The notes under the pieces were generated by a model, which saw only the letters and a list, made by a program, of their open reading frames with translations, did not search any database and was not told where the DNA came from. Below, in pieces: positions 3,925 to 7,059 of a stretch of DNA of 64,000 nucleotides. Position 1 is the stretch's first letter. Each line of letters opens with the position of its first letter. The translations under genes and the position numbers were made by a program. Location of the stretch: positions 1-64,000 of the forward strand of contig JAIQFS010000027.1 in assembly GCA_020073145.1 (NCBI GenBank). The letters are read 5' to 3'. Source of the stretch: Terriglobia bacterium (GTDB lineage: Bacteria > Acidobacteriota > Terriglobia > Bryobacterales > Bryobacteraceae).

Positions 3925-4224
3925 CTACAGGCTAAAGCGGCCAAGAATCCGCCGTACCTGGCCCCGAAAGGCGAGATAGCCGCTGACCAGAGCGGCGCCC
4001 ACGATCAGCGCGCCCGTCGGCGCCAACGCCCCATTTCCGAGGCTGATGGCGAATCCCATGCCTACGAGGATCACGAGCATGCCCGCGAGCATCGTGAGCA
4101 ATCGCCGCTGAAACTGCCGCTGTTCGCGCCGTTCCAACACCTTCAGGCGAAACACCGGATCTCGCTCCGGCGGGGCGTCCGCGCGCAGAAGCTCCACGAG
4201 TCGATTGTCCCGATCTTCACTCAT
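3925..4224 (-). CDS. Small membrane protein, possible anti-sigma factor
   Basis: A 99-residue protein with a charged cytoplasmic-looking N-terminus (residues 1-40) and two hydrophobic segments (about 42-62 and 68-85). Its ATG overlaps the stop of the upstream ECF sigma gene in an ATGA arrangement, so the two are translationally coupled. Position and topology suggest a membrane regulator of that sigma factor. It lacks the HxxxCxxC zinc motif of classical anti-sigma factors, so the role is inferred only from gene order. Confidence 0.65.
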   Translation of the reverse strand: MSEDRDNRLVELLRADAPPERDPVFRLKVLERREQRQFQRRLLTMLAGMLVILVGMGFAISLGNGALAPTGALIVGAALVSGYLAFRGQVRRILGRFSL

Positions 4225-4751
4225 GACCTGTCTCCCAGAATGGGACGCAACTTCTCCCTACCGCGCAGCACATGTGACTTGATGGTGCCGAGCGGAATCG
4301 CCAGCATTTTCGCTGCTTCCTCGTGGGTGTATCCACTCCCCAGGACCAGGGTGACCGCCGCCCGCTGATCCAGCGGCAAGGACAGGAGCGCCTGGCGCAT
4401 CGCGATCCGGTCTTCGGCGGGGGCTTCCGGCGCTCCTTCTCCGGGCAGCGACTCATGATAGGCCGTGTCGCGCCGCGCTGCTCGAAACCATCGGCGCTGG
4501 CTGCCCTTCGCCTTGCGCCATGCGATGGAAAACAGCCAGGAACGCACGCTCCCCTGCCCCCGGAAAGACTTCGCCTGCGTCCACGCGGCGAGAAATGTCT
4601 CCTGCGCAAGGTCGTCTGCGTCCGAAGGGTTGGCCGTGAGACCGCGCAGGAACGTCCGCACCGCCTGCTGGTGGCGGTCGATGAGCGTATTGAACGCGCT
4701 ATCCGAACCGTCGCGGATGGCCGCAAGCAGGCTCTCGTCATCCCCCTCCAT
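4221..4751 (-). CDS. ECF-type RNA polymerase sigma factor
   Basis: A 176-residue sigma-70 family protein with the two ECF domains. Region 2 includes DADDLAQETFLAAW and a following promoter-melting segment (SVRSWLFSIAWRKAK). Region 4 carries the helix-turn-helix EEAAKMLAIPLGTIKSHVLRG near the C-terminus. It lies in a three-gene minus-strand operon. Its ATG directly follows the TAG of the upstream membrane protein gene, and its stop overlaps the start of the 99-residue membrane protein. That context suggests a membrane-signal-responsive sigma unit. Confidence 0.92.
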   Translation of the reverse strand: MEGDDESLLAAIRDGSDSAFNTLIDRHQQAVRTFLRGLTANPSDADDLAQETFLAAWTQAKSFRGQGSVRSWLFSIAWRKAKGSQRRWFRAARRDTAYHESLPGEGAPEAPAEDRIAMRQALLSLPLDQRAAVTLVLGSGYTHEEAAKMLAIPLGTIKSHVLRGREKLRPILGDRS

Positions 4752-5306: not shown

Positions 5307-5906
5307 CTAGTTGTCGAGGCTGAGCACTTCGAAATGAAAGCGTTCGGGCGGAAACAGCACCAGGGCGTCGGGCACCAGGTGCGACCAGGTCTGGTAAGCC
5401 GTGTCGGCCACCGGCGAGTTCAGGTAGAACAGGAACTGGCTGGAGAAGCAATCAATGGGCGGCGGCTGCCGGAACGTGAGGCGAAGACCCACCGCGCGTT
5501 CCAGGGTGACGCCTTGCGTGGGGACGTCCTTGTCGCGCAGCAGGCTCACAAAACTGGCGCGGCTGGCGTGCGGCCACACATCGGGATGCAGCAGATTCTT
5601 GAGCACCTCTTCGCATTCGAAGGTGATCTCGCACTGGCGGATCCATTCGAGCACCGAATCGCCCATCTGCCAGTGCGACCGCAAGGCCCGGTATTGGTTG
5701 GCCAACTGGACGGCCAGATCGAATTTGCGCTGTTCCACGACGGCGTTGTCGGCGTCGGTGGCGGCCAGCATTTCCTCGGCTTCCCCCATCACCGAGTCCA
5801 GGTCGGCCACGTCCTCGGGAGCCCCGTGCTCGATCGAGTGGACCAGCAGCGGGGGTAGCTCGTGGGTCTTGCTGCCCGGGATCCGGATGTAGCGATCGTC
5901 CCTCAT
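5307..5906 (-). CDS. Hypothetical cytoplasmic protein
   Basis: I do not recognise a family for this 199-residue protein. It lacks a signal peptide or membrane segment and is rich in acidic and aromatic residues, with a probably helical middle (EAEEMLAATDADNAV to about residue 90) and a more beta-like C-terminal part. I prefer the ATG at 5906, preceded by GGCAGGA, although the frame stays open to 6038. An AT-rich stretch at about 5945-6000 contains TTGAAA followed by TATG-like sequence and may hold its promoter. Confidence 0.65.
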   Translation of the reverse strand: MRDDRYIRIPGSKTHELPPLLVHSIEHGAPEDVADLDSVMGEAEEMLAATDADNAVVEQRKFDLAVQLANQYRALRSHWQMGDSVLEWIRQCEITFECEEVLKNLLHPDVWPHASRASFVSLLRDKDVPTQGVTLERAVGLRLTFRQPPPIDCFSSQFLFYLNSPVADTAYQTWSHLVPDALVLFPPERFHFEVLSLDN

Positions 5907-6084
5907 GAGATCGTCCTGCCCTACCTTATCGACGTATCGGGGGGCATATTTTGTTTCATAGTGGACCAAAGTGGGATCATTTTCAACCCAAAATGTTCTA
6001 ATGGTACCGATCGTAAGTGGTGATGAGGCTGTTAGCAATCGCCCTTTGCCGCTGCCAAAAGATGGCGCCGGCCTGTGCCCCGCG

Positions 6085-6126
6085 TGCTATGATGCCGCTC
6101 GATGGCTGAATACGATGGCTGAATAC
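6085..6126 (+). repeat. Extended -10 box followed by a 13-bp tandem duplication spanning the glucokinase start
   Basis: TGCTATGAT (6085-6093) is an extended -10 element. GATGGCTGAATAC occurs twice head to tail, at 6101-6113 and 6114-6126, so the start codon is duplicated. The first ATG (6102) is 8 bases beyond the -10 box, but runs only MAEYDG before a TGA at 6120-6122. The second ATG (6115) opens the kinase. The duplication is directly visible; its effect on initiation is inferred. Confidence 0.8.
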
Positions 6127-7059
6127 TCGATCGGACTGGACTTGGGCGGCACGAATCTGCGCGCGGCGGCGATTGACCGCTCTGGTACTATTCTGGACAA
6201 AGTCTCGGGCTCAACGAAGTTTTCCGCCGGGCGGGAGGCGGTGATCGCCGACATGGTGCAGGCGATTTCCCAGGTGCGCGACCAGCACGGCCCGAGCGGC
6301 CTGGCCGGCATCGGCATCGGAGTGCCCGGCTTCATTCAGCTCAAAGAGGGCATTGTCCTCAACAGCAACAACCTGCCATTTCTGGAGGACTATCCGATTC
6401 GTGATGAAATGCAGCGGCGTCTGGGGACCGTTGTCATTCTGGAAAACGACGCCAACGCCGCCGCGCTGGGAGAAAAATGGATGGGCGCTGGGCGTGAGGT
6501 GGACGATCTGGTGCTGCTCACTCTGGGCACGGGAATCGGCGGCGGCATCATCTCGGGAGGCCGGGTGCTGCGCGGCTTTGCGGGAATGGCGGGCGAACTC
6601 GGCCACATCACGGTGGCGCCCAACGGCAATCCCTGCGGCTGCGGCAACCAGGGGTGCGTCGAAAAACACGCCTCCGCCACCGCTGTGACGGCCATGGCCC
6701 GGATGCTGCATCTGGGCGACGAGGTGACCTCGAAGGACCTCGACCGTATGGCCCAGCGCGATGACGAAGCAGGCCACAAGGCGCGCGAGATCTGGCGTGT
6801 GATGGGCGAATCGCTAGGGATCACGCTGGCGATGCTCATCAACACGTTCAACTTCCCGCTGTATCTGTTGAGCGGCGGGATGCTGCCGGCGTGGGAGTTT
6901 TTTGCCCCGGCGATGCTGCGCACGGTGGAGCAGCGCTCCGCCACCTACCGGCTCACCCATGGCGCAACCCGCATTGAACAGGCCACTCTGGGCAACGAAG
7001 CCGGGCTGTACGGAGCGGCCTATTTGCCGTGGGTGGAGAAGGAGAAACAGGGCGGCTAG
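6115..7059 (+). CDS. ROK-family glucokinase or sugar kinase
   Basis: A 314-residue ROK protein that would phosphorylate glucose or a related hexose with ATP in the cytoplasm. The N-terminal phosphate loop is IGLDLGGTNLRAAAID. The ATP-site segment is LLTLGTGIGGGI. The ROK zinc motif CGCGNQGCVEK carries Cys174, Cys176 and Cys181. Substrate-contacting motifs include ENDANAAALGE and GELGH. A longer upstream frame exists (from 5971), but ROK homology begins at MAEYSIGLD, fixing the start at 6115. The gene converges on the permease gene at 7060 with no gap. Confidence 0.9.
   Translation: MAEYSIGLDLGGTNLRAAAIDRSGTILDKVSGSTKFSAGREAVIADMVQAISQVRDQHGPSGLAGIGIGVPGFIQLKEGIVLNSNNLPFLEDYPIRDEMQRRLGTVVILENDANAAALGEKWMGAGREVDDLVLLTLGTGIGGGIISGGRVLRGFAGMAGELGHITVAPNGNPCGCGNQGCVEKHASATAVTAMARMLHLGDEVTSKDLDRMAQRDDEAGHKAREIWRVMGESLGITLAMLINTFNFPLYLLSGGMLPAWEFFAPAMLRTVEQRSATYRLTHGATRIEQATLGNEAGLYGAAYLPWVEKEKQGG

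Follow-up and report, generated by a model that had tools for sequence, protein, structure and literature searches.

A 13-bp tandem duplication at the leaderless-type start of a probable glucokinase gene

How can a gene be translated once its start region has been copied in tandem and the first ATG no longer opens its reading frame? This question is raised by a locus in the window, the whole stretch of 64,000 nucleotides analysed here, in which an intact gene for a ROK-family sugar kinase, probably a glucokinase (314 aa, 6115..7059, plus strand), begins within a perfect 13-bp repeat. Pfam PF00480 places the protein in the ROK family (E 6.3e-65; 220 bits against a cut-off of 22.9). The best NCBIfam model is TIGR00744, the ROK glucokinase, and its 206.8 bits lie under the curated cut-off of 260.35, so that the name given by the first-pass annotation is probable, not proven, while the family assignment stands.

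The duplicated kinase start

Read from 5' to 3' on the plus strand, the locus consists of an extended -10 promoter element, TGCTATGAT (6085..6093), GCCGCTCG, ATGGCTGAATAC (6102-6113), a single G, ATGGCTGAATAC again (6115-6126) and TCGATC, with eight bases between the element and the ATGGCTGAATAC G ATGGCTGAATAC block (6102-6126). The 13-mer GATGGCTGAATAC is present in two abutting head-to-tail copies, 6101-6126: copy 1 (6101..6113, plus strand) carries ATG 6102 at what would be the ancestral leaderless position, and copy 2 (6114..6126, plus strand) carries ATG 6115, the kinase start. Period-13 identity spans 27 bp (6100-6126). No third site occurs in the window at up to one mismatch, two matches were obtained in 0 of 100 shuffles, and across the genome (6.32 Mb) the exact 13-mer is confined to these two sites, with 3 further sites at one mismatch. 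The tandem copy is perfect, as had been claimed, and is not due to chance. In a genome sample made of the window and 40 other stretches (845,128 of 6,321,548 bases), no perfect tandem duplication with a period of 13 occurs other than that at the kinase start, where chance predicts 0.02; for periods of 10-60, five were observed against 1.6 expected. One stretch of the same genome (L154; G000:C5, stretch from 20001) holds, at 835-875, a perfect tandem repeat of the 15-bp unit GGGGGAGGCGGATAT in about 2.7 copies. Slippage on a longer repeat was considered as the cause of the duplication and rejected: by eye, CTCGAT appears twice in the sequence as reconstructed with one copy, at a distance of 15 nt, which would yield a 15-bp in-frame copy, not one of 13, and the actual duplication junction shares 1 bp.

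The copy changes what the first ATG encodes. ATG 6102 lies 8 nt past the extended -10 and opens a putatively translated six-codon ORF made by the duplication (6102..6122, plus strand), which reads MAEYDG and ends at TGA 6120-6122, in agreement with the first-pass annotation on both spacing and reading. Where the annotation had the stop overlap the kinase ATG, our reading differs: the TGA begins 2 nt after ATG 6115-6117, and it is the two reading frames that overlap, by 8 nt (ATGGCTGA, 6115..6122, plus strand), an overlap of the ATGNNTGA type in the classification of PMC10666635. This stop-to-start distance falls within the range of about -8 to +6 nt (PMC10666635) taken to indicate termination-reinitiation (PMC10666635, PMC12548453). 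The kinase ATG lies 21 nt from the -10, outside the leaderless spacing of 7-11 nt that copy 1 displays. With the mRNA 5' end predicted from the -10 alone, the first ATG stands at that end, out of frame with the kinase and with a nearby stop, which is the geometry of a 5'-terminal AUG uORF. By eye, no Shine-Dalgarno-like sequence was seen before either ATG of the window.

A single step would suffice to create this uORF, because the first codons of the kinase, ATG GCT GAA, hide an out-of-frame TGA in codons 2-3; the same hidden TGA occurs in a relative of the genus, G003 (ATGCCTGAATAC). Two other routes into the kinase frame were examined and set aside: a programmed +1 frameshift at the TGA is unlikely by inspection, GGC-UGA not being known as a slippery context, and initiation at CTG 6106, which is in frame with the kinase, is possible, if unlikely beside a 5'-terminal AUG. 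RNA folding over 75 nt gave an MFE of -16.6 kcal/mol for the two-copy 5' end and -21.7 for an in-silico one-copy version, with unpaired probabilities for the AUG bases of 0.97/0.84/0.44 (first AUG), 0.63/0.43/0.41 (second AUG) and 1.0/0.87/0.25 (one copy); the second AUG is somewhat more paired in these folds, to which we give no weight.

A conserved start architecture and its exception

Which of the two ATGs occupies the position at which this kinase starts in its relatives? We collected the starts of 29 relatives' loci (from the best 30 loci, a count that includes the window's) and of the best 80 of 102 homologues. From these 110 rows, 13 with a start region identical to one kept, or with fewer than 60 nt upstream, were removed, leaving 97 starts including that of the window. 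The genus was represented by the window's genome and four others, and the homologues named among the best 80 of 102 are mostly MAGs of Bryobacterales or other Acidobacteriota, together with the nearly complete genome of strain F-183. A site counted as a match to the 9-mer TGNTATNAT when at least 6 of the 7 scored bases agreed, an A and a T being obligatory at two of these.

Among the 94 non-window homologues for which 210 nt or more of upstream DNA were available (from the best 30 loci and the best 80 of 102), which are not all independent because some are close relatives of one another, 62 carry a TGNTATNAT-like element 7-11 nt before the aligned start. Gaps of 7, 8, 9, 10 and 11 nt account for 6, 26, 20, 9 and 1 homologues, against a background at gaps 46-199 with a mean of 0.04 per position and a maximum of 3. 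Grouped by protein identity to the window's kinase, 9/9 homologues carry the element at 70% or above, 25/32 at 65-70%, 25/43 at 60-65% and 3/10 below 60%. Of the 62 homologues with the element, 1 has a Shine-Dalgarno-like core between -15 and -4, and in an alignment of seven sequences the -10 is near-invariant and the DNA further upstream poorly conserved. A -10 directly before the start codon has been described as a signature of leaderless genes in bacteria, Acidobacteria included (PMC3160421). The excess at 7-11 nt over background points to a kinase that was ancestrally leaderless, and the leaderless position that had been proposed for the window's first ATG coincides with the conserved one. 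As a by-product, these comparisons reveal a leaderless-type architecture of this kinase widely shared among Bryobacterales relatives.

The element is present in 73 non-window homologues (from the best 30 loci and the best 80 of 102). The aligned ATG lies 7-11 nt from it in 62 of them, and seven more (L010, L017, L021, L025, L052, L054, L061) have an in-frame upstream ATG at 8-9 nt, giving a slightly longer N-terminus. In three (L043, L049, L055) the element is kept and the leaderless position lacks an ATG, and hence the leaderless geometry is not obligatory. L049 and L055 keep TGCTATGAT, with the aligned start (1501) 42 and 38 nt downstream, possibly a natural change from leaderless to leadered initiation. 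The remaining homologue, L058, has an out-of-frame ATG at 8 nt by way of an apparent 1-nt frameshift inside the kinase gene; this frameshift (around 1470-1530) falls among consecutive Gs in the first dozen codons, and may be a sequence error or the mark of a pseudogene. These patterns suggest a distance from -10 to ATG that is largely conserved and an N-terminus that can differ.

Is the duplication of the window found elsewhere in this set? No perfect tandem duplication of period 8-40 occurs within 60 nt of the start in any of the 96 other starts (97 distinct starts, from the best 30 loci and the best 80 of 102), and the four other genomes of the genus (starts L002, L003, L005, L007) have one copy each. 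Compared with four relatives in the seven-sequence alignment, the window has an insertion of 13 nt; compared with the other two, which have spacers 1 and 2 nt longer, the insertion is of 12 and 11 nt. Judged from the aligned sequences, the window alone among the starts compared breaks its frame by copying its start. Because the extra upstream ATGs of relatives are in frame (seven cases; L058 departs by frameshift) and the duplication is single, parsimony makes a strong case that the 13-bp event is derived on the window's branch, where it moved the real start 13 nt inside the predicted mRNA.

The kinase coding sequence is intact, with a protein branch of 0.166 against 0.171 for its tree neighbour L002, and pairwise dN and dS of 0.141 and 0.919. 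A recent event, its age being judged from these sequences, would be consistent with the identical copies and with the lack of protein-level decay; the same data fit either recency or a duplication that did not cost the kinase its function. As the nearest relative among the matches listed has about 79% protein identity, the event could sit anywhere on a long branch.

Translation of the displaced kinase gene

The neighbourhood suggests that the kinase is probably transcribed alone, since the upstream ORF is divergent and the downstream gene convergent. The former has no Pfam match and likely starts at ATG 5906, by inspection, leaving about 195 bp between the divergent genes; a sigma-70-like factor lies further along (4221-4751, minus strand). 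The latter, a MacB/FtsX-type permease gene, has a stop that abuts the kinase stop (7059/7060). The two genes end on adjacent bases, with no intergenic room for a terminator.

We favour a reading, given about an even chance as a whole, in which an ancestral leaderless kinase, with an extended -10 and an ATG 8 nt on, would have had its start region copied in tandem in the window lineage. An exact copy leaves the promoter and the predicted transcription start as they were, along with the first 12 bases transcribed. The ribosome would still be captured by the 5'-terminal AUG, read MAEYDG and stop, and the kinase AUG, now internal by 13 nt and lacking a Shine-Dalgarno sequence, would be reached mainly by termination-reinitiation over the 8-nt ATGGCTGA, leaving the kinase reduced, not absent. 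We infer the transcription start, the translation of the six codons, the re-initiation and the reduced expression from the arrangement of these elements. Capture at the 5' end has precedents: in mycobacteria a 5'-terminal ATG or GTG was reported to be necessary and sufficient for leaderless initiation (PMC4633059), and in E. coli 70S ribosomes were reported to bind the 5'-terminal AUGs of mRNAs with a further, internal start (PMC4965119). Coupled re-initiation at a lowered output appears the best reading because the ATGNNTGA overlap, which ranks third in frequency among short gene overlaps across 1,695 surveyed prokaryote species (PMC10666635), is common yet said to re-initiate less efficiently, as a -8 overlap, than shorter ones (PMC10666635). 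This lower efficiency also counts against the mechanism. So do a report that re-initiation in E. coli is weak without a Shine-Dalgarno sequence (PMC2268962), the dominance of Shine-Dalgarno-type starts and rarity of extended -10 starts in the genome sample (1/1265), and the three relatives, L043, L049 and L055, without an ATG at the leaderless position. One study cited in a review found that coupling falls as the overlap exceeds 4 nt (PMC12548453). The E. coli case nearest in geometry, rhaB, with an 8-aa uORF, an ATGA overlap and an SD-led gene, also speaks against the mechanism: mutation of its 5'-terminal AUG was reported to leave the downstream gene unchanged (PMC4965119). We regard re-initiation at a ATGNNTGA overlap lacking a Shine-Dalgarno-like sequence as plausible, as far as the sequence can tell.

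Could the ribosome instead start directly at the second AUG, from a leader of 13-14 nt without a Shine-Dalgarno sequence, with the first AUG ignored, used as a standby site or acting as a competitor? We consider this rather unlikely, while acknowledging a precedent in E. coli ptrB, whose 5'-terminal AUG is reported to recruit ribosomes for a nearby internal start without any need to translate the uORF (PMC4965119). Longer leaders also seem tolerated in the kinase family, because in L049 and L055 the aligned start follows the element by 38-42 nt and no ATG stands where a leaderless start would be. Yet leadered initiation in mycobacteria was reported to need a Shine-Dalgarno site (PMC4633059), of which none was seen before the second AUG, and since the two AUGs do not differ in their 12 nt of context, a place at the 5' end should favour the first. 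A harsher outcome, in which the duplication nearly silences the kinase and is tolerated thanks to other ROK kinases or as a short-lived variant, strikes us as improbable. The frame is broken at an otherwise conserved start, and the genome encodes four ROK proteins in all, three besides the window's kinase. The other ROK proteins among the matches listed are, however, about 32% identical to it and may therefore have other sugars; no match to the Glk family (PF02685) was found in this genome by a search positive in 4 of 14 control genomes, and the kinase coding sequence is intact and not accelerated.

We see it as very unlikely that the second copy arose in assembly or belongs to a minority of the population. 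The genome is a draft of 88 contigs, and the likely sequence error near the kinase start of L058 indicates that such errors occur in data of this kind; against this, the locus lies about 6 kb inside a contig of 106,766 bases, and the repeat, at 26 bases, is short relative to ordinary reads. Less credible still is an upstream promoter with an ordinary leader, leaving the first copy untranslated, or a longer protein begun further upstream. No stop interrupts the kinase frame as far back as a GTG at 5971, and the roughly 195 bp between the divergent genes would offer room, but no sigma-70 -35/-10 promoter was found in 5700-6400 by a scan that is blind to promoters without a -35, the extended -10 itself included. 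The near-invariance of the -10, with poorly conserved DNA upstream of it, and the lack of a visible Shine-Dalgarno-like sequence before either ATG also argue against this view. Finally, we mention as a speculation of scant probability that slippage between one copy (efficient leaderless initiation) and two copies (uORF-limited) might form a reversible switch that varies the kinase level through frame and leader length, not promoter strength, and might also offer leaderless genes a one-step route to uORF control.

Known systems and other leaderless starts

Re-initiation behind a captured 5'-terminal AUG, the reading that we favour, would place the locus among known architectures. Several E. coli genes (ptrB, rhaB, rcnR and others; PMC4965119) likewise have an AUG at the mRNA 5' end and a short ORF in another frame that stops at or within the start of the next gene. 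In those reported cases 70S ribosomes bind the first AUG and the downstream genes are SD-led, not formerly leaderless, whereas the window's putative uORF is a copy of the gene's own start. Mycobacterial leaderless short ORFs also overlap the next start, some in the ATGA manner (PMC4633059); here the overlap is of 8 nt, ATGNNTGA, and the ORF stems from a tandem duplication in one genome. The -8 nt class of termination-reinitiation (PMC10666635, PMC12548453) shares this overlap, but the cases known from those sources join two genes, while the window's upstream ORF has six codons and its coupling is only putative. Leaderless genes (PMC3160421), described also in Deinococcus-Thermus (PMC12340547), share the -10 directly before the start codon, a position from which the window's real start is displaced by 13 nt.

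No described case of a duplicated leaderless start was found in the literature searched, as judged from titles and the opening of abstracts. The comparison with relatives makes a strong case that, in a soil-type bacterium, a derived 13-bp duplication displaced a widely conserved leaderless-type start, and a regulatory consequence is plausible. The locus is not a new system: it is an instructive natural experiment, in one genome, within a known kind of architecture. The event alters little else than turning a leaderless start into an internal one behind a six-codon ORF, and it illustrates the birth of a uORF in one step. If expressed, the gene would provide a direct test of how a leaderless gene survives the loss of its 5'-terminal position, and of re-initiation over an 8-nt overlap lacking a Shine-Dalgarno sequence.

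How common are leaderless starts in this genome? Such genes were predicted in all three Acidobacteria genomes examined in one study, at 9.7-19.4% (PMC3160421). Our 845-kb sample gave 430 candidate ATGs from 399 screened ORFs; the ORFs were picked by a simple greedy procedure, which makes the counts rough. The peak of SD-like tetramers lies about 4-12 nt ahead of the start. Hexamers that resemble a -10 in 5 or more of 6 bases number 18 at gaps 6-12, where about 6 are predicted from the 25 over gaps 13-40. A generally leaderless genome is not supported, given the dominance of SD-type starts and the modest enrichment of -10-like hexamers; leaderless starts probably exist here as a minority. A perfect extended -10 at gaps 7-11 precedes 1 of the 1265 in-frame ATGs of the sample. 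This sole 7/7 case, TGATATCAT, lies 9 nt before the ATG of a minus-strand ORF in L154 (15342-16940), whose protein start presumably resembles that of a sigma-54 factor.
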